A stretch of 22,272 nucleotides of DNA from a virus. The position numbers were made by a program, and so were the translations under genes. Shown here piece after piece: positions 10 to 21,886 of the stretch. A model generated the notes under the pieces. It had not been told where the DNA came from. It worked only from the letters and a program-made list of their open reading frames with translations, and did no database searches. Each line of letters begins with the position of its first letter. Within the stretch, counting starts at the first letter, position 1. The DNA is taken from positions 1-22,272 of the IMG/VR virus record IMGVR_UViG_3300017917_000913; one strand, 5' to 3'.

Positions 10-1170
10 TTATACTCCGTACTTGTTCTTTTTAGGTTTAGCCACAGGGCTAACTGTATTTGTTGACTCTAATTCTTGGCTACGCATGTCACCGTGATTC
101 ATATCTTGATGATTAGCACCAGCGGCCTTGTAGGCCTTTTTTAATATTTTAGCATCTTGTTCTGAATACGGAAATGCTACCTTGAATTTTCCGACCCAGC
201 TTTTAGAATCGATATCCGGATCATTTTCGCCGTCGGTCATGGCCGCTGCCATCATAGCACGGTACTGTACATAATCAGCATTCCACCGTTCGGCATCTGT
301 AAATCTATGAATACCTCTAGTAGACTGCTGTTGTCTTTTAGTAATTTTTCCTTCTTTCGCTTCTTGTAATTCTTGTTCAATAACTTTAATTTGTTCTGCT
401 AGTTTGAAAGCACGTAAGTTCTTACCTGGTGTTGATGCATCAACATCAACAGTAGTGTTTTGTGCAGTAATTTTACCTACACCAAATTCTTCTGCAACTT
501 CTGGTTGTTTCTTTTTAGCTTTGGCAGCTTCTTTTTCAGCTTTAAGTCTTTCTTTTTCTGCTTTGGCTTTTTCTTTCTCTGCGGCTTGATGTAAGTAGGG
601 TGTTAGATAATGTTTAACAACTTCAAAGAATGGCTTACCGCCAATCGGTGTGTTAGCAGGCACACCAGCTGCCTGTTCAAATGCCTGCGGATCGTTATTA
701 GCAACAGCCGCACGTAATTCTGTAGCACTACTAATGCGAGGTGCTTCTTCCCATACAATATCTTTAAATCGGTAAAAACCGTGTGGGCCTTCTACACCGT
801 TAGATTTTTGTAATCCTGCAACAAATACTTTTGCATCAGCCGGATCAGTTACAACGTGTAGGGTAACAGGTCCGTGTTTTTTATACACATGTGCGGCTAA
901 TGTCCACCAACTTTGTTCGGCAACAAGATGTTCTTTAACATCTGGCCAAATTGCCTGCATGGCTGCAATTTTAACTTTAAATGGTAAAGGGTCTTTAGGA
1001 CCTTCTGTACTTTGATTTGTACCAACGTACCAAGCACTAAATCCAGAAGCTAATTCCCAAGCGGCTTTATGTCCTTGATGGGGAGGATTAAAACGGCCAA
1101 AAATGATTGCAACATCTTCGACTGATTCACCTGCTTCATATATGTTTTCGTATAGTTCTCTTAATTTCAT
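10..1170 (-). CDS. HxGH-motif nucleotidyltransferase (NMN adenylyl/cytidylyltransferase-like) with phage-specific C-terminal half
   Basis: The N-terminal half (about residues 18-155) has the nucleotidyltransferase Rossmann-type signature: IFGRFNPPHQGH at 23-34 with the HxGH signature at 31-34, and ISSATELR at 146-153, matching the ISSTxxR phosphate-binding motif of NadM/CoaD-type enzymes. Such enzymes transfer NMP from ATP or CTP to a phosphorylated substrate; NMN adenylylation is the closest guess but specificity cannot be read. Residues 195-225 form a Lys/Glu/Ala-rich likely coiled coil, followed by about 160 residues I do not recognise. The first residues, MKLRELYE, resemble the N-termini of the next two upstream genes and contain LxE, the cleavage consensus of the T4 prohead protease. 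The start codon overlaps the stop of the upstream gene by 4 nt (ATGA), so they are translationally coupled. Confidence 0.85.
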   Translation of the reverse strand: MKLRELYENIYEAGESVEDVAIIFGRFNPPHQGHKAAWELASGFSAWYVGTNQSTEGPKDPLPFKVKIAAMQAIWPDVKEHLVAEQSWWTLAAHVYKKHGPVTLHVVTDPADAKVFVAGLQKSNGVEGPHGFYRFKDIVWEEAPRISSATELRAAVANNDPQAFEQAAGVPANTPIGGKPFFEVVKHYLTPYLHQAAEKEKAKAEKERLKAEKEAAKAKKKQPEVAEEFGVGKITAQNTTVDVDASTPGKNLRAFKLAEQIKVIEQELQEAKEGKITKRQQQSTRGIHRFTDAERWNADYVQYRAMMAAAMTDGENDPDIDSKSWVGKFKVAFPYSEQDAKILKKAYKAAGANHQDMNHGDMRSQELESTNTVSPVAKPKKNKYGV

Positions 1171-2384
1171 ACTCTAGTTGCTCCCGGAGCCCACGATGTT
1201 GGTACTAATTTTATATTACCATATTTATGCCCTGGCTGTGCATAGCGAACGTAGCCTTCGCCCTCAGTGTCCCATATCTCAGGTCGACTCTGCGATTTAT
1301 AAGTAGCTACTACTTTATCTTTCATGTCGCGAATATCTTTAATCAAATCAAATATAGCATCAAGTCCGCCGGGCTGTTGTTTAATCATATCGATGATATG
1401 CTGTTGTTTCTTTTGGCTTACACCTTTTTGTTGCATCCAGTTCATAAAAGTTTCGCCAGTAATACTACGGAAGTCTTGTTTGCCAGCCGCATGTAGGTTA
1501 CTCATCTGATTAAAGAACGGATAAAATATTCCGTTCTTATCAGGATCGGGTAGGCTAGCTAAGAAAGCATCTACTTTTGGACCTAATTTAGTAGCACGTT
1601 GTATTGCGATATCGATTTCTTTCGTATCCATACCGCTACCTTCACTAGTATAGATGGGACCTTGAACAATTAGTCCGGCTGTTTGATTAAACATTGAAAA
1701 GTCATCCATTGGTTTCTGCGCTCTGTCAGGAGCACCGAACTGATCAAACGATCCATGTCCTACGACCATTACTCTTGCCTTGCTAATACGCTGTCCTAGT
1801 TCACTTGTGGCATCAACGTGGTAACAGGTCTTTGATTTAGGATTAGGACAGAAAGTCCATATTCCGTTAGGATATTCTTTAGTCTTTTCTAAACGTTTGT
1901 CTAGGCTAGGATCAACTCCAAATAAACTATCAGCATATACAAAGCCTACAAAGTCTTTAGGTGTAGCCAAATCAAATAATGGATATAGATTGGCAAAATT
2001 CTTAGCAAACGATTGCCTTGCTTTTTGGTCTTCAGGTGTTTTAGGTTTTCCGCTTTGATTAGCAATAAAATCATATACACCCTCTGGAGTATCTGATTTT
2101 ACACCTCTGCTCCACTGATTGTGTCCTGCAAGAATTAAGGGACCGCCCTTAGTTTCTCTACCCCAATAGACTTGCGGGTTACCATCCCATTTGCCGCGTA
2201 CTGTAGTACCGCCTGCTTTTTCCTGTGCGATTTCTTTAAAATGCTGTAATGCTTCCAGCGTACCTTGAGATCCTTTAAAGAATACTAGATGTTCTGGATG
2301 ATTAAATGCCCGACCGTATTTTTCCATACTGTCATCAGCAGGTCCAGATTTATCCTCAAAATAAAATAGTTCTCTAAGTAACAC
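1167..2384 (-). CDS. Conserved T4-like phage protein with divergent ligase/nucleotidyltransferase motifs (KxDG)
   Basis: 405 residues, GTG start 2 nt after the upstream stop codon, so tightly coupled. KWDG at 65-68 in the context RGKWDGNPQVYWGR looks like motif I (KxDG) of the ATP-dependent DNA/RNA ligase and capping-enzyme superfamily, where Lys carries the nucleotide. FVGFVYADSLFG at 145-156 sits where motif III would be, and EGYV (376-379) plus KLV (392-394) near the C-terminus resemble motifs IV and V. I recall similar proteins of unknown function in aquatic T4-like phages (the DUF6267 type), but this is from memory. The N-terminus, MLLRELFYFED, resembles the start of the T4 virion ADP-ribosyltransferase Alt (MELITELFDED, from memory). 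Function unknown; enzymatic activity is inferred only. Confidence 0.8.
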   Translation of the reverse strand: MLLRELFYFEDKSGPADDSMEKYGRAFNHPEHLVFFKGSQGTLEALQHFKEIAQEKAGGTTVRGKWDGNPQVYWGRETKGGPLILAGHNQWSRGVKSDTPEGVYDFIANQSGKPKTPEDQKARQSFAKNFANLYPLFDLATPKDFVGFVYADSLFGVDPSLDKRLEKTKEYPNGIWTFCPNPKSKTCYHVDATSELGQRISKARVMVVGHGSFDQFGAPDRAQKPMDDFSMFNQTAGLIVQGPIYTSEGSGMDTKEIDIAIQRATKLGPKVDAFLASLPDPDKNGIFYPFFNQMSNLHAAGKQDFRSITGETFMNWMQQKGVSQKKQQHIIDMIKQQPGGLDAIFDLIKDIRDMKDKVVATYKSQSRPEIWDTEGEGYVRYAQPGHKYGNIKLVPTSWAPGATRV

Positions 2385-2386
2385 AG

Positions 2387-2761
2387 TTAGTCCTTATATT
2401 TGCCTTCTTGGAAATTTTTACAAAATTCTTCATGCATTTTTTGGCAAACTTCGTTACAAGTTTGTTCTTCTATTGTACGAGGAAGCTGTCTAATAGGAAA
2501 TTCTTTTATATAATTTTTATATGCTTGTTCAACAACTTTTTTAAACACATTAGGGGATGGTTCTTTATTAGAGTTCATAGACTCTACGCAGTTGCTAATA
2601 ACTGGGTATAAATGCCTACGATAAAGGTCGTCATTATTGTTTAGATAAAAAACTAAATCTTCAACTAAATCATAGGCGATATCTGTTCGTCCGTCTTCGG
2701 TTTTAGTAATAAAGTTAAGATCGTTAAACTTTTTGCCTTCTAAAAGCTCTCTAATACGCAT
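2387..2761 (-). CDS. Small conserved phage protein with MxxRELxE leader
   Basis: 124 residues, ATG start, first gene of a three-gene run ending at position 10. I do not recognise a domain. The N-terminus MRIRELLEGKKF shares the MxxREL pattern with the two downstream proteins and contains LxE at residues 6-8. The rest is helical-looking and charged, with three Cys in the C-terminal third (a CNEVC pair and one more). A GATAAATA late-promoter-like octamer lies about 47 nt upstream of the start. Late expression and the shared leader suggest a virion-associated or capsid-internal protein, but this is inference. Confidence 0.75.
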   Translation of the reverse strand: MRIRELLEGKKFNDLNFITKTEDGRTDIAYDLVEDLVFYLNNNDDLYRRHLYPVISNCVESMNSNKEPSPNVFKKVVEQAYKNYIKEFPIRQLPRTIEEQTCNEVCQKMHEEFCKNFQEGKYKD

Positions 2762-2789
2762 TTTTTATTCCGTTTTTAAAAGTCGCATG

Positions 2790-2815
2790 AATACTACGCG
2801 AATGTAGTATTTATC
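2790..2815 (-). promoter_or_regulatory. T4-type late promoter motif GATAAATA overlapping a hairpin
   Basis: The minus strand reads GATAAATA at 2815-2808, close to the T4 late consensus TATAAATA, in the 72-nt gap before the 124-residue gene. The same octamer precedes the two large virion genes in this window (18651-18658, 21908-21915). It overlaps an inverted repeat with 8-bp arms AATACTAC (2790-2797) and GTAGTATT (2804-2811) around a 6-nt loop. The stem lies at the expected transcript start, so it could affect opening or the 5' end of the mRNA. Confidence 0.65.
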
Positions 2816-2833: not shown

Positions 2834-3490
2834 TTAAGGTTTGATTATGCGCTCTATTTTGTTTATAGAGCTTCCGAGGTGCATTTTAGCCATCAGCAGG
2901 TTGTTTTCACCCGTGATATAAAAGAAAGTACCGCCCCAACTACGATCTCTGCTCAGTTCTTTTGCACAACTTTTAGTAAGTTTAACCTTGGGATTTTTTT
3001 CGGCCCAACTAACAAATGCTGAATGTTCCTGAGTAGTTTTGCCCATAGTAACGCGAAATTCATAATTAATCTTGGGCATAATGATAGTATTACTATCAAG
3101 CTGTGTTTTATCAGGGGGAACGCAGACATACTTAATTCGTTCTTCGTCAATTTTAATAATGCTATTAATATCAGATTCGGAATTAGAGTAAACACTAATC
3201 CAAGGAGTTTCTACTCTTACATCAATGTCTTTGAGTTTTTTAAGTTGCTTTTGTAGCTTAAATGCGTAGTCTAAATCTTCTTGGGTTTTAATACCTGATG
3301 GTCTTCTACCGCCCCATGACATTGTAGCCGCATTAGAAGAATTTAAATTAATCTTCTTAAGGTGGTCTAATGCTGTGTCCATATCCCCACCACGAAACCA
3401 GCTAGCACCAGCACAAGTTATTACTAACTTGTACTGATATTTGCTTTTAAATAATCTCGTGGTTGTTTTATACAACATTTTGCTCAGCAT
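2834..3490 (-). CDS. Conserved phage protein of unknown function, downstream of clpA
   Basis: 218 residues; no catalytic motif recognised. The sequence has a compact alpha/beta look with a conserved-looking WFRGGD motif near residue 32, a SWGGRRPSGIKT stretch, an SWGGTFFYITG stretch and an LLMAKMHLGS C-terminal block. I recall similar proteins in other aquatic T4-like phages but none with a known function. It is the last gene of the dnaJ-def-clpA operon and overlaps the end of clpA. Two starts are possible: ATG at 3490 (23-nt overlap, no clear ribosome site) or the internal ATG at 3478 (MLYKTTTR, with TGAG a few bases upstream), which I find slightly more likely. Its position invites the guess of a Clp adaptor or substrate, with no sequence proof. 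Confidence 0.8.
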   Translation of the reverse strand: MLSKMLYKTTTRLFKSKYQYKLVITCAGASWFRGGDMDTALDHLKKINLNSSNAATMSWGGRRPSGIKTQEDLDYAFKLQKQLKKLKDIDVRVETPWISVYSNSESDINSIIKIDEERIKYVCVPPDKTQLDSNTIIMPKINYEFRVTMGKTTQEHSAFVSWAEKNPKVKLTKSCAKELSRDRSWGGTFFYITGENNLLMAKMHLGSSINKIERIIKP

Positions 3491-5732
3491 TGTCCGCAGT
3501 TAACAGAGGAACTTTCTGCATTTTTGGTCTAGATACTAACACCAATTTATCATCGTCAACTGTAATAGTTAACCATCCTCCGGATTTAAGATCTCCAAAC
3601 AGCATCATCTTAGCAAGGTCTCGCTTAATCTCTTTGTCAATGACACGAGCTAGTGGTCTTGCTCCCATCTTATGATCAAATCCTTTTTCGATGAGCCAAT
3701 CGATTGCTTCTTTAGATACTTTAATTTTAATGCCTTTTTCTTTAACCTGATCTCGAAGTTCTTCCATAAACTTTTCAACGACCTTGACCATAGTTTCTTT
3801 ACTAAGTTTATTAAATGTAACGATTCCATCTAAACGGTTGCGGAATTCTGGTGTAAAAAATTTGTTAAGTTCTTTGTCGCTATAGTCTTTTTGTTGGCTA
3901 CCAAAACCAATTTGATTCTTTTCAGCTTCTTGTGCTCCAGCATTAGTAGTAAGAATAAGGATAAGCTGTCGGCAATCGGCTTTCTTGCCGTTACTACCAG
4001 TGATGAAACCGTTATCCATCATTTGTAGAAGGACAGTAGATACATCTGGATGTGACTTTTCAACCTCATCAAATAATAGAACAGCATTAGGATTTTCTTG
4101 GATGCTTGTAATAAGTTGTCCAGCATTTTCTTCAAATCCCACATATCCCGGAGGACTACCGATCAACTTACTGATGCTATGTTTCTCTTGATATTCTGAC
4201 ATATCAAATCGTAGTAACTTAACACCTAAGTTCTTAGCAAGTGCTTTAGCAGTTTCTGTCTTACCACAACCAGTTGGACCCATGAATACAAAACTACCAA
4301 TTGGCTTGTTATCAGGTTTAAGACCGGCCTGAGCAACAATAATCTTATCAACAACTTCTTGGATAGCAAGGTCTTGCCCAAATACTTCAAGTTCTAGTTT
4401 ATCTTGTAAGCTGGCAAGATTATGGCTTTCAGTTTCGCTGATAACTTCCTCAGGCATTTGTACTACTTTAGCAAGTTCGTACTGAATTTCTCTTTCTGTA
4501 ACTACTTTTTCATCTGCTAATTTTAAATTGAATCTAGAACAAGCAAGATCAATTAAGTCGATAGCCTTGTCTGGAAGTTTCTTATCGGCTTGAAATTTTA
4601 CTGAAAGTTTAATTGCGGCTTGTAGTGCATCATCTTTAATTTTGACACTATGAAATTGTTCATAGTATTTCTTAATACCTTTGAGAATCTGTAGTGTAAC
4701 TTCTGGTGTAGGTTCGTCAACTGTAATGCGTTGGAATCTACGCATTAAGGCACGATCCTTTTCAAAGTGCTTACGATATTCTTCCCATGTAGTTGATGCA
4801 ACTACTTTAATGTTACCTTTACTTAATGCCGGCTTCATCATGTTGGCAAGATCGTTAGCATTGTTGTTTGCTGACCCTGCACCACTGATCATGTGTGCTT
4901 CGTCGATGAACAATACAGTCTTACCTTTCTTAGACAGTGCTTTTAAGACCATCTTAAATCGTTCTTCAAAATCGCCTCGATACTTACTGCCAGCTAGCAT
5001 GGCACTGATATCTAAATTATAAACAGTATAATCTTTAAGGAAGTCGGGCACAGCACCTTTAACGATGTTAAATGCAAGACCTTCTGCAATAGCAGTTTTA
5101 CCTACTCCGGGGTCTCCAACAAGAATTACGTTATTTTTACTGCGACGTCCCATTGCTAGTGCAATATTTTCAAGTTCGTCTACACGACCAATAACGGGAT
5201 CAATTTTATTCTTCTTAACCTGTTCGTTAAGATTAGTTGTAAATGCAGATAGTGCTCTGCTACTATTAGAGCCTTGGTCGTCTTGTTCTTCTTGTTCTTC
5301 AACGGCGTTATTAATATAGTCTGCAAATTTGTCTTTATCAATTTCTGCTTTTTGTATGTAGTAATATGCCCAACTACGCTTCTCACCCATCATAGCAAGG
5401 AAAACATCTGTAGGTTCAATACGCTGACGTCCGTTGAAAAGAACCTGCGTAAACGCACGATTGAGAATGCGCTCAACTGATTGTGTCTTACGAGGTTTAA
5501 CTACAACATCTTGTACAGTGATCTCATTACACTTTTCTTGCAAATAACCAGCAACACTTTTCTTAAACTCGTCTACATTAACACCGTATCCTTGTAATGT
5601 TTTACCAAATGAATCTTCGAGAAGCATAGCAAACAATAAGTGTTCTATTGTTAGATATTCGTGGTGTAGCTTCTTTGCGGTTTCGATCGCCTTTTCGAAG
5701 ATTGCTTGTAGATTGTCGCTTGGTTCTACCAT
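3468..5732 (-). CDS. clpA: ClpA-like AAA+ unfoldase, ATP-binding subunit of Clp protease
   Basis: 754 residues, about the size of bacterial ClpA, and apparently intact. Order: Clp N-domain (1-145, two repeats), a Glu/Gln/Asp linker (145-155), AAA1 with Walker A GDPGVGKT (206-213), Walker B VLFIDEAH (273-280) and an arginine-finger region ALMRRFQ (328-334), then AAA2 with Walker A GPTGCGKT (485-492), Walker B VLLFDEVEK (551-559), FRNRLD (630-635) and sensor-2 GARP (690-693). The tripeptide IGF at 608-610 sits in the loop that docks on ClpP in ClpA/ClpX. No long coiled-coil M-domain as in ClpB/ClpC is seen, so this is a protease partner rather than a disaggregase. No ClpP gene is in the window, so host ClpP is the likely partner. 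A good ribosome site (AAGGA) precedes the ATG, which overlaps the def stop by 7 nt. Confidence 0.96.
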   Translation of the reverse strand: MVEPSDNLQAIFEKAIETAKKLHHEYLTIEHLLFAMLLEDSFGKTLQGYGVNVDEFKKSVAGYLQEKCNEITVQDVVVKPRKTQSVERILNRAFTQVLFNGRQRIEPTDVFLAMMGEKRSWAYYYIQKAEIDKDKFADYINNAVEEQEEQDDQGSNSSRALSAFTTNLNEQVKKNKIDPVIGRVDELENIALAMGRRSKNNVILVGDPGVGKTAIAEGLAFNIVKGAVPDFLKDYTVYNLDISAMLAGSKYRGDFEERFKMVLKALSKKGKTVLFIDEAHMISGAGSANNNANDLANMMKPALSKGNIKVVASTTWEEYRKHFEKDRALMRRFQRITVDEPTPEVTLQILKGIKKYYEQFHSVKIKDDALQAAIKLSVKFQADKKLPDKAIDLIDLACSRFNLKLADEKVVTEREIQYELAKVVQMPEEVISETESHNLASLQDKLELEVFGQDLAIQEVVDKIIVAQAGLKPDNKPIGSFVFMGPTGCGKTETAKALAKNLGVKLLRFDMSEYQEKHSISKLIGSPPGYVGFEENAGQLITSIQENPNAVLLFDEVEKSHPDVSTVLLQMMDNGFITGSNGKKADCRQLILILTTNAGAQEAEKNQIGFGSQQKDYSDKELNKFFTPEFRNRLDGIVTFNKLSKETMVKVVEKFMEELRDQVKEKGIKIKVSKEAIDWLIEKGFDHKMGARPLARVIDKEIKRDLAKMMLFGDLKSGGWLTITVDDDKLVLVSRPKMQKVPLLTADNAEQNVV

Positions 5733-6214
5733 TTAATTTTCCTTTGCTTTTTTCTTGCCAAAATTAATTTCATTTGGCTTACTTTATCGGTAAATGTAAT
5801 TCCGTTTAAATGATCTAATTCGTGTAAAAAACATCTAGCATCGATGCCAGATAATGACATTATACATTCTGTTCCTTGCTTGTCAAAGTATTTGATATCA
5901 ATAGTTTTTGGACGTTTAACATCTAGCCAGAGATTTGGAAAACTTAAACACCCTTCTTCTGCTGATATATCCATATCGTCTTGTTTTACAATTTCAGGAT
6001 TGAACATTCCGACAGTTTGGCCTGTGCTTTCTAATTTTATAACAAATACACGTTTGAGTAAACTGACTTGATTTCCAGCAAGACCGCGTCCTCGAAATGA
6101 TTCCATGATTTTAATCATTTCTTGTTCAACTTCTTCGGCGTTAGTATCTATGGAAAAATCCCATTCTACTGCACGTTGTTTTAAAATTGGATCAGGATCT
6201 AGTGTTAATTTCAT
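5726..6214 (-). CDS. def: Peptide deformylase
   Basis: 162 residues, typical for phage and bacterial deformylases, which remove the N-formyl group from nascent proteins. The three metal-site motifs are present: GRGLAGNQ (42-49, motif 1 GxGLAAxQ with Gly for the second Ala), EGCLS (87-91, metal ligand Cys89) and HELDH (131-135, both His ligands and the catalytic Glu132). The residue before motif 3 is Leu rather than the more usual Gln. The C-terminus is short and basic (KKQRKIKW). The start overlaps the dnaJ stop by 23 nt and the end overlaps clpA by 7 nt, so the three are one operon. Deformylases are known in cyanophages and other aquatic phages. Confidence 0.96.
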   Translation of the reverse strand: MKLTLDPDPILKQRAVEWDFSIDTNAEEVEQEMIKIMESFRGRGLAGNQVSLLKRVFVIKLESTGQTVGMFNPEIVKQDDMDISAEEGCLSFPNLWLDVKRPKTIDIKYFDKQGTECIMSLSGIDARCFLHELDHLNGITFTDKVSQMKLILARKKQRKIKW

Positions 6215-7025
6215 TGTTGAGATCCTTGAGCTTTTGTATTAAATGTGGATCTGTAATCTTTGGAGTCCTGATAACAACAACTATTACAAATTTTCCTTTT
6301 CGGCCAGTATGCGGATTTCGGAAACCATGATTTGCCGAGGCATATTCTATACCGGATTCGATGCCCGGTCTGATATCAACATCTCTGTCAGACCCATCAA
6401 GGTGTTTTACTTGCTTTCTACAACCAATAATGGCTTCAATTGGATTAACATATACTGTAGTATATAGATCGTCATTTTCTCTTCGATAATTTTGATCTGG
6501 TTGTACTATAATAGTTACGTTTAGGCTACCTCTAGGCAAATTAGGTACGCTATCATCACCTAATCCTTGATAGCGTATCGTTTCGCCGTGACTTATACCA
6601 GGAGGAATATTAATTATTACTGTCTGTGGTTTTCCGCTAGGAAGAGTATAGTTTGCTTCAATTTGTTTACCGTTGAAAGAATCTAATAAAGAAATTTGAC
6701 ATTGAATATTGAGATCTCGATTCTTTCTTATTTGCCGTCCAAATATATCTCCGAACGGTCCGCCCATTCCTCCAAAGATGTCGTTGAAGTCTTGGAATCC
6801 TCCTGATCTAAATCTAAACTGCTGACCACCTGATCTCATTTGATCATATTCGGATTTCTTTTGTGGATCACTAAGTGTTTCGTAGGCTACACTAATATCT
6901 TTGAATTTAGATTGGTCACCTCCTCGATCAGGATGGTGCTTCATAGCCAAACTACGATACGCCTTTTTAATTTGGTCTGGCGTAGCATCTGGCTTTAATC
7001 CTAATGTTTGATAATAGTCACTCAT
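6192..7025 (-). CDS. dnaJ: Type-B J-domain co-chaperone (DnaJ/CbpA-like)
   Basis: 277 residues. The J-domain (1-67) carries the essential HPD at 31-33, needed to stimulate DnaK ATPase. A Gly/Phe-rich linker follows (about 65-97, e.g. GGMGGPFGDIFG), then two C-terminal substrate-binding beta domains (about 103-265). The CxxCxGxG zinc repeats of true DnaJ are absent, making this a type-B protein like CbpA. It is the first gene behind a perfect sigma70 promoter whose predicted start lies about 24 nt before the ATG; no clear Shine-Dalgarno sequence is visible. No DnaK is encoded here, so it presumably recruits host DnaK. It is followed by def and clpA with overlaps. Confidence 0.95.
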   Translation of the reverse strand: MSDYYQTLGLKPDATPDQIKKAYRSLAMKHHPDRGGDQSKFKDISVAYETLSDPQKKSEYDQMRSGGQQFRFRSGGFQDFNDIFGGMGGPFGDIFGRQIRKNRDLNIQCQISLLDSFNGKQIEANYTLPSGKPQTVIINIPPGISHGETIRYQGLGDDSVPNLPRGSLNVTIIVQPDQNYRRENDDLYTTVYVNPIEAIIGCRKQVKHLDGSDRDVDIRPGIESGIEYASANHGFRNPHTGRKGKFVIVVVIRTPKITDPHLIQKLKDLNNEINTRS

Positions 7026-8614: not shown

Positions 8615-8881
8615 TTATTTTACGCTGTCGAAATTTTGTTTTTGTGTATCGTACCACTCTTTCCACAATTCGTTTTTAAATTGACATTCGTGGTATTGAC
8701 TGTAATTTTCAGTAACTATCTTTAACACTTCACTAAACTTCTCAGTACCTGCCGGTACTTCTTTTAAATTAGGGCACAATTCTAATAATTCTTTAGGTGC
8801 TTCTGGGAATGTTCTTTTAACAGGTGTAGCAATACAGCCCGATAGTAAAATCACAGAAGTTAAAATTAATAGGTATCTCAT
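8615..8881 (-). CDS. o-spanin-like outer-membrane lipoprotein (Rz1-like)
   Basis: 88 residues. A signal peptide ends in the lipobox LLSGC with Cys16 as the lipidated residue, so the mature protein should be an outer-membrane lipoprotein. The mature part begins IATPVKRTFPEAPKELLELCPNL, of a type found in phage Rz1-like proteins that pair with coiled-coil inner-membrane partners. Two more Cys (in ELCPN and HECQF) are present. The start overlaps the upstream coiled-coil membrane gene by ATGA, the usual spanin-pair arrangement. Together the pair would fuse inner and outer membranes at the end of lysis. Confidence 0.75.
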   Translation of the reverse strand: MRYLLILTSVILLSGCIATPVKRTFPEAPKELLELCPNLKEVPAGTEKFSEVLKIVTENYSQYHECQFKNELWKEWYDTQKQNFDSVK

Positions 8882-9348
8882 TCTTTAGTCCTTTCGGGTT
8901 TTTTGGCCGCCTCATTTAAAATATTAACAGCCTCCGGAGTTACCTTACATTGTGCATCTACTACTTTTTCAACTTCCTTGATCTTTTCTTGTACAATTAC
9001 TTTAGTATCGGTTATTACTTTTACTCGATCCTTATATTGTACAACTATTTTTTCATTGATCTGTTTAGCCTTTTCTTCTGACTCTTTGACCTTAGCTTCG
9101 AGTTCCGCTACACGTTCTCGCCATGCCATTTCAACGCCGTATCCGCCTTTAAAATAAAGACCAGCTACAAGTAACACAGCACTGATGATTTGTAGTATTA
9201 GATGATAAGGTGCAAGTGCAGGAAACCAACGAACAACACGGTGGATAATGAAGAAGGATAAAAATGCACTAACAGCTCCAGCGACTAATAAAATATTAAC
9301 CGCATAAACAAGAACACTATCAGGAATCCAACTCATTAGCCAAAACAT
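8878..9348 (-). CDS. i-spanin-like membrane protein with coiled coil
   Basis: 156 residues. Two membrane segments (about 11-36 and 46-67) are separated by a short basic loop (HRVVRWF), so by the positive-inside rule both ends face the periplasm. Residues 75-130 are Glu/Lys/Val-rich with heptad-like spacing, a probable periplasmic coiled coil, followed by a short tail with one Cys. Classical i-spanins have one span, so two spans is a variation. The order endolysin, coiled-coil membrane protein, lipoprotein supports the spanin call. AGGA 7 nt upstream of the ATG lies inside the end of the endolysin gene. Confidence 0.7.
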   Translation of the reverse strand: MFWLMSWIPDSVLVYAVNILLVAGAVSAFLSFFIIHRVVRWFPALAPYHLILQIISAVLLVAGLYFKGGYGVEMAWRERVAELEAKVKESEEKAKQINEKIVVQYKDRVKVITDTKVIVQEKIKEVEKVVDAQCKVTPEAVNILNEAAKKPERTKE

Positions 9349-9349
9349 A

Positions 9350-9976
9350 TTAGATTCCTAAAACATGTAATGCGTGGTTATAATGCTTGATACGATCTTC
9401 TAAACCAATAGTGCCGCCGTTAATACGTTTTGTTAGTGTTAGGATATCGCCTTTATCGGCCCACTGATTTAAATTATTTGTTTCCCAGAACCAGCAAGCT
9501 GATTGTACAGCACCTTCAAATGTTTCTAGATATTCGGCTGCTTCTTCTACAGGAATTTCTAAGCTGGCAGCGAACCATGTATAGTTTTCTTTACCAGTTA
9601 ATTGAATTAGACCACGACCGCAGTAACGGAAGCCATCACCGCTTGCTTCGTCACCGTTGCCCATACGATTACCGTAGATTCTATTAGCAATCTTAGCTGG
9701 TTGCTTTTCGTATGCTCGTGCTTCGTCTAGTGTTTTAAAATATTTAGGAAAAACTTTTACTAGGCTTTCTGCTTTATAATTTAAGTTTTCTTTTAAGAAT
9801 TTAAACCCGCCTGACTCGTGAGCACACTGAGCAATAAAAGCCGCAACACGTTGTGGAGTATTAATTTCATATTCAGGAAGAATCTGAGATATTGCATCAT
9901 ACCATTGATCGACATACGGATTGCCTTTGATCATTTCTGCTAGGTGTTCTTTTTTAAAGTCGAATTTAAAACTCAT
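9350..9976 (-). CDS. GH19 chitinase-like endolysin
   Basis: 208 residues, a single domain. AHESGGF (52-58) holds the probable general-acid Glu54, and GFRYCGRGLIQLTG (115-128) is the hallmark of the GH19 family used by many phages as a peptidoglycan-cleaving lysozyme. WFWETNN and the TKRINGG block near the C-terminus also match the family. There is no signal peptide, so release should depend on a holin. It is followed with 1-nt spacing by the spanin pair and holin candidate, a complete lysis cassette. The start overlaps the preceding stop by one base (TAATG). Confidence 0.93.
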   Translation of the reverse strand: MSFKFDFKKEHLAEMIKGNPYVDQWYDAISQILPEYEINTPQRVAAFIAQCAHESGGFKFLKENLNYKAESLVKVFPKYFKTLDEARAYEKQPAKIANRIYGNRMGNGDEASGDGFRYCGRGLIQLTGKENYTWFAASLEIPVEEAAEYLETFEGAVQSACWFWETNNLNQWADKGDILTLTKRINGGTIGLEDRIKHYNHALHVLGI

Positions 9977-13626: not shown

Positions 13627-13898
13627 TTAGTTGCCTCAGTTGTTTGTTTTTTTAAACGAATCGTTTCTAAGTGCTTGATCAGTTGATCATATTCTTCTTG
13701 ATTCACAGAATATAAATTATCGCTCATGTTATGATGACCGCTGAAGATACTGAAACTCTCTCTTGTAAAAATAGTAACAGGCTTCCAATGTTTGTGTACG
13801 ATATTATTGATGAACACTAATCCACATAGTAATACTATCGAACCAAGAGTGAACAGGATTGATCCAACTAACCATAAACTTGCTTGTTCTAAACTCAT
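13623..13898 (-). CDS. Small single-span membrane protein
   Basis: 91 residues. One long hydrophobic segment (about 8-32, WLVGSILFTLGSIVLLCGLVFI) is followed by a hydrophilic part with a His-rich GHHN and a C-terminal helix ending KKQTTEATK. No motif recognised. It is linked by ATGA overlaps on both sides, to the cytidylyltransferase-like gene and to the clamp-loader gene, so it is part of the same early operon. Function unknown. Confidence 0.75.
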   Translation of the reverse strand: MSLEQASLWLVGSILFTLGSIVLLCGLVFINNIVHKHWKPVTIFTRESFSIFSGHHNMSDNLYSVNQEEYDQLIKHLETIRLKKQTTEATK

Positions 13899-14341
13899 TT
13901 ATTTTCTGCCTTTACTATAAATTTTTCTGCTTCAGCATCGATTACACGTTGTCTTAGTTCAGTTGTAGAGAATGTGTGTTCTCGTTTGTTAAAATAAAAC
14001 TTAATACCTTTTGTGATACATTCTTGTCTTCCAGTAAATCCACGATGTTCATATTCTTCTCCTAATATTCTAACATTTATAGGATAAGAAAGCAAGATAT
14101 CCACTAGATCTTTTTCCGTAGCATATACTACTATTTCGTCTACATACTTACAGGCCTGTAATTGTACATATCTTTCAAATATGCTTTGCACAGGTTTATT
14201 TTTTTCTAATGGACGATCAATAGTTGGATCTGTTTGTAGTCCTACGATTAAGTAATCGCATTGTGCCTTAGCTTCTTTGAGCATAATAATATGCCCAGCA
14301 TGGAACAGATCAAATGTTGAACAAGTAAAACCTACTTTCAT
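13895..14341 (-). CDS. Cytidylyltransferase-like enzyme (glycerol-3-phosphate cytidylyltransferase family)
   Basis: 148 residues, near the size of TagD. GFTCSTFDLFHAGHIIML (4-21) has the HxGH motif at 14-17, and FSTTELRQRV (124-133) matches the RTxGISTT/ISSTELR motif; FERYVQLQACKYVDEIV (55-71) fits the conserved RxxxLxxxxxVD helix. The family makes CDP-glycerol, CDP-ribitol or similar nucleotide-activated compounds from CTP. The substrate cannot be told from sequence. It is the second gene of the early operon and is distinct from the other HxGH protein at 10-1170. Confidence 0.88.
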   Translation of the reverse strand: MKVGFTCSTFDLFHAGHIIMLKEAKAQCDYLIVGLQTDPTIDRPLEKNKPVQSIFERYVQLQACKYVDEIVVYATEKDLVDILLSYPINVRILGEEYEHRGFTGRQECITKGIKFYFNKREHTFSTTELRQRVIDAEAEKFIVKAENK

Positions 14342-14665: not shown

Positions 14666-15052
14666 TTAGATAGTTTTGCTGAAGTCGTACATACCGCCTT
14701 CTGTTGGTGTAGAAAATTTTCCTAATTCCAAATCGGATGGCTTCTCATCTGCTGATGCTAGGATTCCGTCTGGATCAGCTCGCCATATAGTAAATTTAGT
14801 GCCGTCATCTTCTTCGACTTCGATTCCTCGAGTCCAACGACCGTGTTCGAGTAGAATCCATTCGCCGACTTTAACATCAGTCTGCTCAGGGCCAATCGCG
14901 AATACTTTTGCCCAACGAGGCTTAACACCCTCGGACTTGCCATCATCACTACGGATAACAATACCACTAGCAGTAGTTTGCTCGCCAAAGTTCATATCTC
15001 GAACTAAGATATGTTTACGAATAGGTCTAATTTTGTTAGCTAGAGCTTTCAT
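14666..15052 (-). CDS. groES: GroES-like co-chaperonin (T4 gp31 analogue)
   Basis: 128 residues. IRPIRKHILVRDM (8-20) matches the GroES N-terminal strand; the following segment ends in SGIVI (29-33), the hydrophobic tripeptide site of the GroES mobile loop that binds GroEL. VKPRWAKVFAIGPEQTDVKVGEWILL (43-68) and the final DGILA (95-99) complete the beta barrel. About 30 residues after the barrel (to DFSKTI) are extra relative to bacterial GroES. T4 gp31 replaces GroES so that the major capsid protein can fold; the same role is likely here. It is the last gene of the late block and starts within the ATGA overlap of the 80-residue gene, with AGGAGG just upstream. Confidence 0.88.
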   Translation of the reverse strand: MKALANKIRPIRKHILVRDMNFGEQTTASGIVIRSDDGKSEGVKPRWAKVFAIGPEQTDVKVGEWILLEHGRWTRGIEVEEDDGTKFTIWRADPDGILASADEKPSDLELGKFSTPTEGGMYDFSKTI

Positions 15053-15314: not shown

Positions 15315-15322
15315 TACTTATC
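15315..15322 (-). promoter_or_regulatory. Possible weak late promoter (GATAAGTA)
   Basis: The minus strand reads GATAAGTA, one base from the GATAAATA motif, in front of the 80-residue gene and co-chaperonin. It overlaps the last Arg codon and stop of the DnaE-like gene, so the sequence is partly constrained by coding. Confidence 0.3.
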
Positions 15323-15833
15323 TCAGGAATTCCTGCCAGTCCAAATTAAATTTAATAGGGTCGATGCTATGAACACCTATTAAGTATAATACATAACTTG
15401 CTACACTAGATCCACGTCCTACTCCCCATACTACACCTTCTTTTGAGCAAGTATCTACAAAATATTTTAACCAGCGTAGTAAATCTAGCATATTTCTTGC
15501 TTTGTACGCAGCCAATTCTTCTGCTAGTCTAGTACACTGAGGATCCCACGGCGGACATTGTTCTTTGAGCCATGCTTCTATATCCATTTGTTTATATTCG
15601 CTAGGCATGTTCCAATTGTCTTGCATATATCGATCATAATCTTCAATGCTCAACTCATCATTGGCATTAATCGGCGGAACGAAGCTAAAATCTAAATGTT
15701 GTTCCAATTTAGTAGTTTCTTCTGTTCGATCGACAATAATAGTATCAGCAGAAGTTAGTTTGAAGCCACGATATAATGCTTCAAATATATCTTGATCGTT
15801 AAGTATTGGATTTGAATATTGATCTAATCGCAT
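15318..15833 (-). CDS. Stand-alone DNA polymerase III alpha (DnaE)-like palm fragment
   Basis: 171 residues. The last 36 residues read WGVGRGSSVASYVLYLIG then HSIDPIKFNLDWQEFLR, a clear match to the C-family polymerase segment GPGRGSGAGSLVAYALxITDLDPLxFxLLFERFLN. The preceding helix (LLRWLKYFVDTCSKEGV, about 119-135) also fits DnaE. The gene stops exactly before the DxD catalytic aspartates of bacterial DnaE, and no PHP domain precedes it; the N-terminal 110 residues are not recognisable. I recall this short gene in other aquatic T4-like phages, so it is probably a functional small protein rather than a broken one. Polymerase activity is not possible without the aspartates. Its role may be binding of a nucleotide or primer, by inference only. 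Confidence 0.8.
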   Translation of the reverse strand: MRLDQYSNPILNDQDIFEALYRGFKLTSADTIIVDRTEETTKLEQHLDFSFVPPINANDELSIEDYDRYMQDNWNMPSEYKQMDIEAWLKEQCPPWDPQCTRLAEELAAYKARNMLDLLRWLKYFVDTCSKEGVVWGVGRGSSVASYVLYLIGVHSIDPIKFNLDWQEFLR

Positions 15834-16076: not shown

Positions 16077-18620
16077 TTATGTTGCGTCACTGTCGTTAAC
16101 CCACTGTGTGCCGCTCCATTTGAGTACTTGTCCAGCAATTACTCCGGATATAGCAACGTCTGTTAATTCGTCTAGTGTAGTAAAGCCTTGTGCAAAACTC
16201 TCACCGAATGCGCTGAGGAACGGTATTGCCTTCCATGTGTTTTCTTGGATACAAATATATAGATAATCTGAATCATATGATATTTGTCCAGCTTTTCCAG
16301 TTGAGCTAGCAGTGACAGGGGTTGAAATAATTTCAGCAGGTGTAACGCCTCCTATTTCACAGCCATTGTTACCAATTACGTACCAAGAGCCATCAACGTA
16401 TTGTAGTGTTACAGAATCACCTCTTGTGTCAAATACAATAGTACTTGATCCACCACCACTAACCCAACCTGCATTAGTAACGGTGACTGTAGCATCACCT
16501 TGGTCCACTTTCATTACTAAAACTTTTGTCTGTCCTTCAGAACCAGCACCGAGGTTATAACTTTCTACGTCTTCAGTTGATAGATAAGTTACAGTAGTGT
16601 TTAAACTTATATTTGAACTAGGTACACCTTGATCACTGCCATTGTAACCTGCTTTAATGTAAGTCCAATTAGTAAAACCGTCATATACGAACGTTACAGT
16701 TCCGTATGCACCACTAAGCACTCTTGATTTGTTAACTGTATCACCGTTTATTGAATTACTAATATCATCTTTTACTTTGATAGTTATAGGATTAGTATCA
16801 GCACTACCATTATCTGTTATAGTAATATAAGTTCCTGGTGTAAGTACATAACCTTCATTATCATAAGGTAATGTAATTGTTAGAGATCCGTCGGCAGAGT
16901 CTACAACAATGTCTTGATTTCCGTATGCAGTATAGTCTTTGCTAACTAATACAGGACCGTTGCCTACTTGGATCGGAACCGCCGCACCTAATAACGAAGT
17001 ATCAGGACCACCGGTTACTTGTTGTCCGTAAAAATACAATGGACTAGGAGTTTCTTCTGTAACTAATATTTCAACATAAGAACTAGTTATAACAATATTG
17101 TCAGTGTATGGAGTAACGGTATCCGGTGAGTTGCCATCAACAGTTACGATAGTATCGGGTGTTAAAGAAAATCTTAAAAGACGATTTTCATTGCTAGCGT
17201 CAGTGATGTCAAATCGATATTTTTTTCCTCTTTGGAACTTAATAGGATATTGTGTAACAACACCAGTACCGAGATCAACTTCTGCTAGAAGATTGCCGTC
17301 GAACGCAAAGACTTGTCTAACTCCGTCGCCGTATTCTTCGATGCTTACTGCATATTCAATTAAATCTGCTTGGTTAGTCCATACGGAACCGTTCCATTTT
17401 AAGCTGTCGCCTGCTATCGGAGTTGAAACAACAACGTTTTGTATATTGTCTAGGTCGGTAATTGTAATTGATGAACTAGTTAAGACACTCTCGCCGTTGA
17501 CTGTAAGGTCACCTTCTACTAAAAGGCTTCCGCCTACATTTAAGTTTTTAGCAATACCGACACCACCGGAAACTACTACTGAACCTGTTTCTATATCTAG
17601 AGATTCTGTAGCATCGTTGACTGATAGCGATCCGACATTTAATGCGTTGTAGTTTGATGCTCCAGACCCCATGGTACCAACATAGTCTAAAAATACTTTC
17701 TTGGTAGTACTTCCAGTCCATGTCCATGCTTCAACTACTTGGTTTGATAAATTAGGATTTAATTTGATAGGTAAAATAAAATCAACATTGGGTACGATAA
17801 CGCCCTGTCCTTCAGTGGCAAATGTTATTTCGTGCCAAGGTTTAACAGTACCGTCACCAGATCCATTAGTGTCAGCGTCAAATACAGTTCCAGAAATAAT
17901 TCCGTAGTACGTATCACTAGGATTATTTAAGGTTATACTGTTATTAACTGCGTATGTTCCTGTACCACCAGTACCGGACCCTAGGCCAGTTATTCTTGTT
18001 CCAGGAGTAATACCAGTTCCGATCAAATATGTTCCGACTGCTAAATTTCCGCTAGAAACAGATGTAACAGTTAGTGTTGTACCGGAAAATGATCCCTTCC
18101 ATATTGCACTGGGACTAGCACCCATGGAAATCCAGTTAGTCGTTCCTGGATTATCAATAGTATATCTTTTACCAATTTCAATGTCGTTACCGACGTTTAT
18201 AATAGATCCGTTACTGACTAAATGTACTTTTACTCGAGCATAATTTCCACTGTCCGGCCATTCGATAAATGTAAATTCGGTATCACCCAACACAGTATAA
18301 GACTGTAATGACCCGTCAAGAATACTAATATTTCTAGTGCCACTGGCTTCAGCCGCATAGCTAGTACCATGAAAATTAGTAAAACTACCGTTAGATATAT
18401 TGCTACCGCCTAGGTCGTTACTAAATGTTCCGCTTACATTGTCCCCGGCTAGCGGAGCTTTTAATACGGCTTTTGATTGCAAATCTTCAAGTTCTTCTTT
18501 TGCATAGCGGAAGTTACGCTGGATAACATCGAAGTTATCTCTAAATCCTTGGCTATCATTGTCTTTGCCTGCAACAGGGTAAGTTTTATCAATGCTCTGG
18601 TAGTTTATCTGGCTTGTCAT
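16077..18620 (-). CDS. Virion structural protein, tail-fibre/baseplate-like, with nested repeat domains
   Basis: 847 residues. The N-terminus ([29 protein letters not shown], with DLQSKAVLK near 47-54) is typical of virion proteins of aquatic T4-like phages. The rest is Gly/Ser/Thr/Val-rich beta structure: [20 protein letters not shown] (351-370) resembles trimeric beta-helix fibre repeats, and a LTDVxxxxxxxGQxLKWxGxxWxN repeat occurs at 389-416 and at the C-terminus (about 816-843). Residues 148-176 and 242-259 form one known-looking motif (YTIxxxGTTNWxxxGA ... GTVFxA) that is split by a second motif (177-238, [24 protein letters not shown]-type). AGGA 7 nt before the ATG; ATGA overlap with the upstream virion gene. 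A GATAAATA motif lies 31 nt upstream. Confidence 0.85.
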
Positions 18621-21600
18621 ACGGTTATCCTATCATTTCTGAATACTAGATATTTATCTTGTGTTTGACCCTCTATGGAATCTATTATATATCGATCTAC
18701 AGTATAGTCTAGCTGATTAAAGCTAAATCCTGTAGTACTAAAGTAATTTTTAATATTTAAAAGCAGATCATCAGCAGTGCCAACTTTGCAGTAGCATAGC
18801 GGCACAGCCAGTTGAAAATCTAGCTCTGTTTTAGTCCCCGGCTGTATGCTACGCATCCAAAGGGGAAGATAGTTTCTTTCAACGGCAAAATTTTCGCCAT
18901 CGCTAGACCAATTTTTTATACGATCTCTCCAATTGCTAACACTATTCGGAAAATACTCTTGATAGTTGCTGTCACTAGATTTATATCCAGTACCATCTGC
19001 TGTAATTATATTTTCTGGTCTCCGAGCTTCGGGAAAATCAGCAGTTAAATCATTTATTTTTCTACTCCATATACTATTACTAGTATCAATTGTAATTGGA
19101 TTAGGTTGAGCTTTATGTCTATTTAATTTGTTAGGAAGACGCTTGCCTTTTGGCTCAAGTGGATCAGCCATTTCGACATATATTACTTCATATATTGCTG
19201 TCTGTGTTCCTGGAACATACGCAGTGGCTTTTTTAATCTGATTAAAGTTAAATCTTTTTCTCTTATGGTTCAGTCCAATAGCACTGATATATGCAGCCGC
19301 TTCTTTGGTCTCGACTCCGGCAAATACTACCATTGATAGATCTTTTTGTACTCCGAAGTTTGGATCATTTGGTCTATAGATACTACCAGGTGTAAATACA
19401 TCGGTATTGTCTATAAAACTACTCCATAAAGATCTTTGTTCTAGTTTTAATAATGGTTTAACTCGAATATTACTATAGACTAATTGATCTGGAGTTTCTA
19501 CGTTTATTCTAAATGTGCGAGTAATAGCACTGTAACCAAATTGATCTCGAGCTTCGATTGTGAATACATAGTCTCGATCAAACGATGTAGTACCTCCGTC
19601 GAACTCTGAAGGTTGTGTAATAGTGGCATAGGTAGTAAAAGAATTTCCACCTGAAACACTATCACCGGATCCATATGCATCTCCGCCGTCTATGTCATTG
19701 TTTGAAGAATACTCGTCTTCGTAAGCATCACCGCCCGTTAACAGATCTAGATATACAGTATCAACAAATCCAGTTAAACCGCTTTGATCTTCTGTACTGT
19801 ATTGATTTACTTTTCCGATAATTTCGCCATCAAGGTCTAGAGTTAAACCGGGTGGTAAACGACCACTTATAAGATTATAAAGTATAGTTGCCCCAGGAAT
19901 ACTACTTGTAGCTCGTACACTTAGCGTCGAAATAAAGTTAGCATTAATAGTGCCAAGGTCGCTAGGTGTGTTCCATGTTAATGCGCTATCAACTTCACCT
20001 AATATATCAACGGTGAATATTTTTGGACTACTAGATCTTTCCCCTGCTGAAAGGATATACTTAAAAGATACCTTAGTGTTACTATTAATGATAATATTAG
20101 TTAAAAGATTAATAGTAACTTGAGATGGGTTAGAATAGTCAACTGATGTTATATTAGATGAATCATAGCTGACATTGTCAATTGTAAATGAGCTAACTTC
20201 GTTTAGAACCGATGATATTAACGGATAATCAATTTTATTAACAACAATTTCGTTAATTCTAATTCCTTGGTTAGTTGGAACAACAACATATTCTGCAGAA
20301 TTGATTTTACCGCTGAGTTTAGTAGCTGTTACTGTAAAGGTGTAAGTTCTAGTAATGGCTGGCTGATACGGAACTAGTCCGTGTACCTCTGCATTGTTTT
20401 CGTCGAATGCCATTCCGGGAGGCAATTCACTAACAGTTCCAATTAAAAACTCAACGTCATCCGGAACATCAACTTCTAATGGGTAATATAATGTTAACTT
20501 ATAAGCACCGTTACCTAGATCTTCTACTGCATCAACTCTGTTTATTCTAAAAGCCTCGGGAACTTTACCGCTAAAAGTTAAAAAATGACCAACAGTCGGC
20601 TTGACGGTAGTTAACGTTGTTGTTAAAAACTGTGAACCAATGATATTAGCACTTTCATAAACTGGCTCACTGTTTACGATGGAAAATCTTCTTTTAGTAG
20701 TTGCTTTAGAATCTGCATTTACTTGCTCTAATTCATAGATGATATTTTCTGTTTCGTATGTGTCTAGTATTAGAGTGATATAATTGTTTGCTCTTTTTAA
20801 ACCGAGGTAGCTGGGAGTCAACCAAGTTGGTGCTCGCATGTAAGTAACGTCAGATGTGAACAGTGGATCAGCATTTAACCATGTAGTGTTGTCAGCACGG
20901 AAATAATCATCACCAACAACAAATATTTTAAAAGTTCTCTTTTTATAACTATCACCGTCAGTTACAGTTACAGTAAATTGATAAGTTCTATTTAATTTTT
21001 TTAGTCTGCCTGATGCTAGACTGTAATCGAAGAAAACACCGTCGTACACGTAGCTATCGAAACCATTAGTTGGTCGGAAAGCAAAGTCATAGGCTACTAC
21101 ATCGTACGTGCCATCGTCAAATGTACCATCACCGTCTTCTGGTTTTATAGATAGTGTAGGTTGTATAAATCCTACTAACCTTCCGTCTTGAGTCAAGGTT
21201 AGTCCAGGAGGCAATTCACCATCACCCCTAGAAATGAAATAACTTAATCTTTGCCCGGCACCTGTATCTGAATCATATGCTTCTATTTGATAATCTACAA
21301 AGGTACTGTCCATTACAAATAATTCGCCAGGATCCCCTAACTCTAACAGACCTGCAGGAGTATCAAACTCTGGCTCGTCAGCACCTTCTATAGTAATAGT
21401 AAATGTTCTATCGCTAATTTGTCCTTCTTTACTAGCACGTATAACAAATGTAAAATCTGTAACTCGAGGAACTTCAAAGGCAGAACCGACTATCGTAGTT
21501 CCTTCTAGTCTTAATCCAGGAGGAAACTCACCGCTTATTTTAGTAAATGTAACCCCGGTAAAATTTTCAATAGGCAAATTAAGAGTGAGCGATCGTCTTT

Positions 21601-21886
21601 CGCTGAATGCTACTCTGCTAGCGACTCCAGTTCCGGGACTTGGAGATTGCAATCCTGTTGAGGGATTAGTGACTATAGGGCCTGCTTCGCCCCCGTTATT
21701 AGTCGCTGTGAATACTGTTCCTACTGTGTTCACAGGTGCACCGATTTTTGTAAAATCTGTAGTTCCTACTGATTGAATTACATACTGTAAATTAGGTATA
21801 AAACTACCACTATTTACAGATGTGTTGGATCCCGCAGGGTATCCAAAATTCCAACCAGAGGGTTTAGTCCATACATTTAACGCCAT
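18617..21886 (-). CDS. Large virion structural protein with Ig-like (He_PIG-type) repeats
   Basis: 1089 residues. It opens [15 protein letters not shown], which I recall as the start of related virion proteins in aquatic T4-like phages. At least four copies of the Ig-like signature G-x-[LF]-PPG-[LM]-x-[LF] followed by G-x-[VI]-x-G occur: 119-137, 222-241, 487-506 and 674-693, within extended beta domains, suggesting a long surface-exposed fibre or baseplate appendage. A YVIxSxGTTDFTxIGA...VGTVFTAT module (32-68) sits between the N-terminal motif and the first repeat. The C-terminal 150 residues are different, with [19 protein letters not shown] (about 1024-1042), and may be the attachment or trimerisation part. 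Exact virion position unknown. Upstream GATAAATA at 21908-21915; ribosome site weak (AGAGAG). Confidence 0.85.
18651..18658 (-). promoter_or_regulatory. T4-type late promoter motif GATAAATA for the fibre-like gene
   Basis: The minus strand reads GATAAATA, 30 nt upstream of the fibre ATG, inside the last codons of the preceding virion gene. Identical octamers occur at 2808-2815 and 21908-21915, each just before a gene. Confidence 0.6.

Follow-up and report, generated by a model that had tools for sequence, protein, structure and literature searches.

A capsid-targeting-like leader shared by three unrelated proteins suggests a virion-cargo cassette in a T4-like phage

Organization of the cassette

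We describe a cassette of three adjacent genes in a stretch of viral DNA of 22,272 bases, which constitutes the whole of IMG/VR record IMGVR_UViG_3300017917_000913, is probably a fragment, and is referred to here as the window. The genes lie on the minus strand in the order gene 3 (2387-2761), gene 2 (1167-2384) and gene 1 (10-1170); a gap of 2 nucleotides separates genes 2 and 3, while genes 1 and 2 overlap by 4 nucleotides. The open reading frames (ORFs) agree with an earlier, sequence-only reading of this DNA, which had noticed three coupled genes whose products begin MKLRELYE (gene 1), MLLRELFYFED (gene 2) and MRIRELLE (gene 3). Gene 1 (P0001, 386 amino acids) and gene 3 (P0003, 124 amino acids) start with ATG; gene 2 (P0002, 405 amino acids) starts with GTG, so that the M given for it in that reading is the initiator. 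The bodies behind the shared start are unrelated, as had been claimed: gene 1 encodes the leader, an NMNAT-fold nucleotidyltransferase, a charged helix and a C-terminal KRQQQSTRG module; gene 2 encodes the leader and a DUF6267 body (PF19782); and gene 3 encodes the leader and a small orphan protein. The HxGH motif of gene 1 (GRFNPPHQGH) and the KxDG motif of gene 2 (KWDGNP, K65) are both present.

All three leaders are read from the minus strand. That of gene 1, MKLRELYE, occupies 1147-1170 (MKLRELYENIY with the following residues) and has a predicted cut after E8 (L-Y-E / N); that of gene 2, MLLRELFYFE, occupies 2355-2384 with a predicted cut after E10; and that of gene 3, MRIRELLE, occupies 2738-2761 with a predicted cut after E8 (L-L-E / G). 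The tripeptide [LI]xE, said to occur in each start, fits gene 2 only as LRE; at the conserved downstream Glu of gene 2, the P3 residue of the most frequent variants is one of Y, F, I and L (YFE, YRE, FNE, IRE, LFE). A cut after LRE or IRE was considered and rejected, since the later Glu follows the whole hydrophobic stretch and is conserved equally well or better.

Conservation of the leader

To retrieve relatives of gene 1 from viral contigs, six peptides internal to the protein were used, and the N-terminus was left out of the query. Of the 35 loci, 34 have an N-terminus, and all 34 begin with the leader M[KRL][LI][RN][EQN]LxE; at the remaining locus (L037) only the C-terminal module matched, behind a start of its own, MRAKEFIAEKK. 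Among the 58 non-redundant gene 1 homologues, one of them the window copy, a leader-like start is seen in 57 (51 by the pattern, four from an upstream start, and two respelled, in L037 and the methylophilales phage Melnitz), and P-HM2 has none. The mean share of the majority residue across 57 homologues is 0.86 in the leader, 0.30 in the next ten residues and 0.62 in the catalytic core, with the lone C-terminal module of L037 left out and four starts corrected. The alignment of N-termini that had been suggested as a check thus finds the leader of gene 1 conserved beyond the core.

Gene 2 behaves similarly. Its leader pattern is matched in 30 of 38 homologues, and across the 37 that were aligned (truncated L105 was left out) the mean share is 0.83 in the leader, 0.42 in the next ten residues and 0.73 in the core; one of the six retrieval peptides was N-terminal here, so this set is somewhat biased. 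Among the exceptions are L094, with MLLRELFLFD (D for E), L036, with MRYRELVE, and six homologues of a more distant clade, with MRF.EF followed by [IV].E/[AN]. For gene 3, 39 of 51 non-redundant homologues match and two more do so from a downstream Met. In genes 1 and 2 the Glu at the predicted cut hardly varies, and the body can be set apart from its leader by a long insert (L088, L101, L103, L057). The Leu, Phe and Ile codons of the leader vary synonymously among homologues, which argues for selection on the peptide.

Of the 28 ORFs in the window, 3 match a pattern built from these leaders; over eight records the count is 17 of 1184 ORFs, every one of the 17 in the three gene families, compared with 0.00-0.01 matches per record for shuffled N-termini. 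Because the pattern was derived from these same genes, what is informative is the absence of matches in any other gene. With a broader pattern, the eight records yield 32 ORFs against about 7.7 summed from shuffles.

The leader is also found on other bodies. The C-terminal module of gene 1 (residues about 256-386; 13-405, minus strand) occurs elsewhere as a separate gene with a leader of its own, MRAKEFIAEKKNGKLTKRQQQSTRG at L037:1143-1514 and MKVTEIISEAKQAKITKRHSQSSRG at 129496-129885 of contig G001. In L004, a near-identical contig (95% identity in gene 1, over 99% in genes 2 and 3), the run continues beyond the window edge with MKAYEILSEA (260 amino acids; seen by eye and missed by the pattern) and MKKFVQIVKEG (start uncertain). 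Further leaders in the run of other relatives are MKVTDILSE, MKITDLLTE and MRIYEIITED, and G001 carries a DUF6321 gene with MKVSEIISE. Melnitz has four adjacent genes with respelled leaders, MQGFKTFLSEA, MINFSKYITED, MKKFSELTSELIE and MKKFSEIIEA, among which are a DUF6267 gene (MINFSKYITED) and a nucleotidyltransferase. Across these genomes the leader goes with position and not with the body behind it, it is exchanged between bodies, and its spelling changes from one lineage to the next in several genes together. The peptides are short, and one might ask whether their likeness arose by chance or through common descent by tandem duplication; we regard this as extremely improbable, given the near-zero shuffle counts, the different modelled folds of genes 1 and 2, and a spelling that tracks lineage rather than body.

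Several neighbouring observations concern the same genomes. The window encodes a second HxGH nucleotidyltransferase (13895-14341; CTP_transf_like, E 6.4e-16) which has no leader and offers an internal contrast to gene 1. A Dps/ferritin-like gene without a leader lies directly after gene 1 in L004 (L004:7142-7576), and similar leaderless ORFs come after gene 1 in several relatives. G001 (loci L122-L141), a relative of the window, is a T4-like contig of 383 kb and carries several leader genes, including one at 174604-175926 with long hydrophobic stretches.

A late-type motif ahead of the cassette

A T4-type late promoter-like motif, GATAAATA, lies at 2808-2815 on the minus strand, 46 nucleotides upstream of the start of gene 3. 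The window holds three copies, all on the minus strand (2808, 18651 and 21908) and 21-46 nucleotides upstream of ORFs; the other two precede a tail-fibre-like ORF (start 18620, PHROG match) and a large ORF (start 21886). The latter encodes 1089 amino acids (18617-21886) and has no PHROG match. The motif is not over-represented in the window, with three copies found against a shuffle mean of 1.92 and three reached in 28 of 100 shuffles; as the count is at chance level, the argument is one from position and conservation only. Of 50 gene 3 homologues, 42 have ATAAATA in the 150 bp upstream, 41 of these as GATAAATA, compared with 0 of 38 for gene 2. This conservation in 41 of 50 homologous cassettes bears out the late-type motif noticed earlier and supports late expression of the cassette, as predicted from the sequence. 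Another candidate, CATAAATA upstream of gene 1 (22 of 58), is probably coding sequence of gene 2.

Comparison with T4 capsid targeting

The N-termini of T4 proteins read MKTYQEFIAEA for IPII and IPIII, MKTFKEFTST for IPI, MAKINELLRES for gp24 and MELITELFDED for Alt, the last exactly as given in the sequence-only reading; the cleavage site of gp23 is FLTE/A. The likeness to T4 capsid-targeting propeptides proposed there is borne out by the starts of IPIII, gp24 and Alt. In the window leaders a hydrophobic pair at i/i+3 (L3 or I3, and L6) and a final Glu are preserved, and two of the three have 8 residues. According to a review of T4, ten residues of T4 IPIII suffice for incorporation into the head, with residues 4 and 7 serving targeting and residues 8 and 10 processing, and foreign proteins fused to the capsid-targeting sequence (CTS) are delivered into the host (PMC9026906). 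A second source describes the internal proteins as diverse defence proteins in which only the CTS is conserved (PMC3012670). By analogy, the identification of the cassette leaders as equivalents of the T4 CTS is supported.

A strict ten-residue T4 pattern matches 5 of 265 ORFs in the T4 genome (IPII, IPIII, Alt, gp24 and gp61.1), with 0.74 expected from shuffles, and misses IPI. The product of gp61.1 (AF158101, 18966-19130; 54 amino acids, annotated as hypothetical) starts MKTFKEFIKED, a full CTS-like leader, and is a candidate unrecognised internal protein. Among the titles and abstract beginnings listed by a literature search, with most subscription journals outside its coverage, we found no account of such a leader in cyanophages.

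Peptidase_S77 (gp21) and Gp23 are each found in 3 of 20 records, namely G001 (383 kb), Melnitz and P-HM2. The maturation sites of the capsid proteins, located by eye, are LLTE/A in S-CREM2, ILTE/A in S-SZBM1, FLSE/A in Melnitz, YLAE/S in G001 and FLTE/A in T4. This common form bears on whether the leader is cut at all. An Asp at position 10 of T4 IPIII inhibits processing and still allows targeting (PMC9026906), L094 has MLLRELFLFD, and in some gene 3 homologues the expected E is replaced by D or P. The leader could dock the proteins on the virion or scaffold without being cleaved, the proteins then being structural or assembly factors and not injected effectors. We consider this unlikely: genes 1 and 2 have Glu at the expected site almost without exception, the capsid-protein maturation sites of related lineages share its form, and the NMNAT and ligase-type bodies are non-structural folds.

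Leader-bearing proteins in published cyanophage virions

Published proteomes of related cyanophages connect the leader with the virion. Mass spectrometry detected 52 proteins in S-CREM2 virions (PMC10665884, Table 3). The strict T4-type pattern, written from T4 sequences when the S-CREM2 N-termini were already known, matches 5 of 219 S-CREM2 coding sequences (0.14 in shuffles), and all five are in the virion proteome (Fisher test, 6.5e-4 over all 219; 4.4e-5 over the 195 outside the structural class of the paper). These are a SAM hydrolase (MKDFDSFLEE), gp13 (MKDLHSFLTE), an APH-like kinase (MKRFDAFLTE), gp136 (MQTFSMFFSE) and a cytidylyltransferase (MKNFSSFLTE). In S-SCSM1, 2 of 271 ORFs match, one of them an NMNAT (MKSFLQFLKEA) reported in virions (PMC9602691). 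The cytidylyltransferase S-SZBM1_140 (MRFRQFIIEA) is listed in a proteome table (PMC9146016); its start falls outside the strict pattern. Leader-bearing nucleotidyltransferases are therefore reported in virions of three isolates, S-CREM2 (MKNFSSFLTEA), S-SCSM1 and S-SZBM1, and they are distant homologues of gene 1 (25-31% identity, E 4e-7 to 1e-9) in the same PHROGs, 395 and 3041. For S-CREM1, 14 virion proteins were reported by mass spectrometry.

The same three isolates encode DUF6267 proteins without a leader (MNKATKPLTHIEH, MQNKHQEHPEDT and MAKNTHLEHLED); that of S-CREM2 is absent from the proteome table, that of S-SCSM1 carries no virion flag in its record, and that of S-SZBM1 goes unmentioned in the main text. 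Only one of them, S-SZBM1_141, is a full-length DUF6267 protein adjoining the nucleotidyltransferase. Since the leaderless forms are missing from the virion lists and the DUF6267 proteins of the window clade and Melnitz have a leader, packaging is predicted for the latter.

The shared start might alternatively be a cytosolic docking or regulatory peptide unrelated to the head, serving a phage complex, a chaperone or translation control. In its favour, the starts of genes 1 and 2 resemble each other as DNA too, TAAGAGAACTAT and TTAGAGAACTAT; the codons vary synonymously among homologues, however, the leader-bearing nucleotidyltransferases are virion-borne in the three isolates from which leaderless DUF6267 is unreported, and a late motif precedes the cassette. 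We judge this explanation improbable. Packing into the head, as the sequence-only reading had proposed, gains support from a conserved leader that is linked to virion presence in cyanophage proteomes, and it does so via relatives only.

Two further features of these virions were noticed. The Cas9-like virion nuclease gp12 of S-CREM2 (L176, OR473000, 3837-13331) has a leader-like stretch, RFASFMAEA, after 17 residues, and gp13, gp14 and nearby gp6, around gp12, have clear leaders, forming a cluster of predicted injected enzymes. The virion proteins S-SCSM1_97 (L181:33121-33306) and S-CREM2 gp160 (L177:28342-29235) share GFTGxxAxEGPxAGYDPLM, which recalls the capsid protein just past its cut site.

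The encoded proteins

The family matches of gene 1 are to CTP_transf_like (E 3.2e-4), to a cytidyltransferase family in PHROG (E 7.2e-14) and to NadR (E 0.0057). Its AlphaFold2 model has high confidence at residues 20-220, with a predicted local distance difference test (pLDDT) score mostly over 90 in the NMNAT-type domain (residues 19-194; 589-1116, minus strand), which carries GRFNPPHQGH and RISSATELR. Among solved structures it comes closest to NMN adenylyltransferases (2r5w, Z 13.3; 1m8k, Z 13.0), and phosphopantetheine adenylyltransferases (PPAT/CoaD) lie within 1 Z of them. The model, its structural neighbours and the NadR profile identify the predicted fold as that of an NMNAT-type (HxGH) nucleotidyltransferase.

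With E 7.2e-12 and 45.8 bits, gene 2 exceeds the DUF6267 cut-off of 27 bits, and all 37 aligned homologues match the family too. K65-x-D67-G68, E376-G377-x-V379 and K392 are invariant in all 37 rows, and KxDG, EGxx and KLV also occur in five other DUF6267 proteins (KxDG in 5 of 5). In ligases, the motifs follow in the order I (KxDG), IV (EGxV) and V (K). KWDG (2181-2192, minus strand) is a candidate nucleotidyl-lysine motif I, and EGEGYVRY...NIKLV (1203-1265, minus strand) holds candidate ligase motifs IV and V, as suggested by the invariant residues and by the neighbours of the fold. The model of gene 2 has a pLDDT of 88; its best structural match reaches Z 7.4 over 184 residues, a middling score, and ranks 1-49 among the best 50 listed are RNA or DNA ligases. 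Foldseek gave nothing significant with this model (best E 0.11), and the DUF6267 alignment gave only chance matches to the sequences of solved structures. We conclude that DUF6267 is probably a covalent, ligase-type nucleotidyltransferase; our literature search, with most subscription journals outside its coverage, found no paper on this family.

Gene 3 has only sub-threshold, chance-level matches in Pfam and PHROGs. PADLOC reports nothing for the three genes and NCBIfam nothing for genes 2 and 3, and P0002 and P0003 have no match by tblastn against a phage collection. The term nucleotidyl-transfer system, used in the sequence-only reading, is supported in part, by an NMNAT-type fold in gene 1 and by ligase-type motifs with a weak fold match in gene 2; joint action of the two would be conjecture.

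Elsewhere the window encodes a group of proteostasis proteins (3468-7025 and 14666-15052), comprising a Clp-type double-AAA ATPase with Clp_N, a peptide deformylase, DnaJ and a GroES-like protein, and a probable lysis block (8615-9976), in which one ORF matches GH19 at a score under the cut-off (E 8e-4), alongside a match to an Rz-like spanin and a lipoprotein-like ORF. A stand-alone piece of DNA polymerase (15318-15833, 171 amino acids) matches phrog_11127 over nearly its full length. No Rfam family was found in the window.

Discussion

Our analysis suggests a model in which the leader is a capsid-targeting address, and we hold it likely that the proteins bearing it are packed in the prohead, lose the leader to a gp21-type protease and are ejected with the DNA. 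The three genes would open a late-expressed run of genes for internal head proteins. The leader of 8-10 residues on each protein would bind the scaffold core of the prohead, so that the protein becomes enclosed; a gp21-type prohead protease would then take off the leader by a cut behind the conserved Glu, and the proteins, now mature, would be ejected together with the phage DNA and may act within minutes of infection on NAD and nucleotides or on nucleic-acid ends. The leader would thus be the address and the bodies interchangeable cargo: an NMNAT-type enzyme with a second cargo module, a DUF6267 protein and a small protein. The presence of these proteins in virions we infer from their relatives, and the steps of scaffold binding, cleavage, injection and early action we infer in turn.

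A number of observations weigh against this model. The strict T4 pattern has 0 matches in the window and six related contigs; genes 1 and 3 have leaders shorter by two residues and none of the three leaders shows the T4 spacing, so that their equivalence is one of analogy. No match to gp21 or the capsid protein was found in the window, probably a fragment, or in 17 of the 18 IMG/VR relatives searched, which are apparently fragments as well. P-HM2 keeps both bodies and lacks the leader, which is, in this one relative, the loss of the start from conserved bodies that the sequence-only reading had named as counting against it; about 10 of 51 gene 3 homologues also have none. In the cyanophages, looser patterns give 7 S-CREM2 coding sequences with 3 detected, or 7 with 5 detected, and 47 of the 52 detected proteins (23 of 28 outside the structural class) lack the strict pattern; with most S-CREM2 virion proteins unmatched, the leader is not the sole route into the virion. 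The second match in S-SCSM1, a 106-amino-acid protein between virion genes, is not flagged in the record, leaving one of two in virions. S-CREM2 gp87 and S-SCSM1_257 are shorter DUF6267 proteins (294-295 amino acids) encoded elsewhere in the genome, and the authors of two of the proteomes leave contamination open for such virion enzymes (PMC10665884, PMC9602691).

The packaging system itself is already known and is not of a new kind; what is new here is the leader variant and its cargo. More tentatively, and with considerable doubt on our part, the leader could be an address for virion cargo that is readable in T4-like phages of marine and fresh waters alike, and the cassette a pre-packed kit against NADase or nuclease defences, in which, ahead of all phage gene expression, the NMNAT would replenish NAD+ and a DUF6267 ligase would rejoin cut tRNA or DNA, with DUF6267 entering and leaving the virion by gain and loss of the leader.

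T4-like phages are very abundant in water, and co-injected enzymes are known only where virions were analysed. Published cyanophage proteomes report NMNAT-like and other enzymes in virions and do not distinguish cargo from contamination (PMC10665884, PMC9602691). A short leader that marks virion enzymes and is missing from related proteins unreported in virions provides a simple, testable rule, by which the likely injected payload of uncultured phages would become readable from sequence; the ligase-type motifs provide a first functional handle on DUF6267.

Compared with the gp21-processed T4 proteins IPI-IPIII, Alt and gp24, the cassette proteins have the same short N-terminal leader with i/i+3 hydrophobics and Glu at the predicted cut, and, as with the T4 internal proteins, unrelated bodies stand behind it, under a T4-type late motif and in a T4-like phage. 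The cassette leader differs in being mostly 8 residues long, with RE before the second hydrophobic (LRELFE), and the cargo differs as well: NMNAT-fold and ligase-motif proteins in place of small inhibitors or an ADP-ribosyltransferase. S-CREM2 gp154, S-SCSM1 ORF91 and S-SZBM1_140, the three nucleotidyltransferases detected in purified virions, share with gene 1 PHROGs 395/3041 and a CTS-like leader before the enzyme, whereas the window protein adds a C-terminal cargo module and adjoins a leader-bearing DUF6267 protein. Gene 2 scores above the family cut-off and has KxDG, EGxx and KLV in common with the DUF6267 proteins of T4-like phages; the leader is present on those of the window clade and Melnitz and absent from those of P-HM2, S-CREM2, S-SCSM1 and S-SZBM1. 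With the ligase superfamily (Naegleria RNA ligase, REL1, T4 Rnl1), gene 2 shares motif I, KxDG, and candidate motifs IV and V, and it differs from these enzymes in a large helical stretch before motif IV and in a structural similarity of Z 7.4 with a Foldseek E that is not significant.

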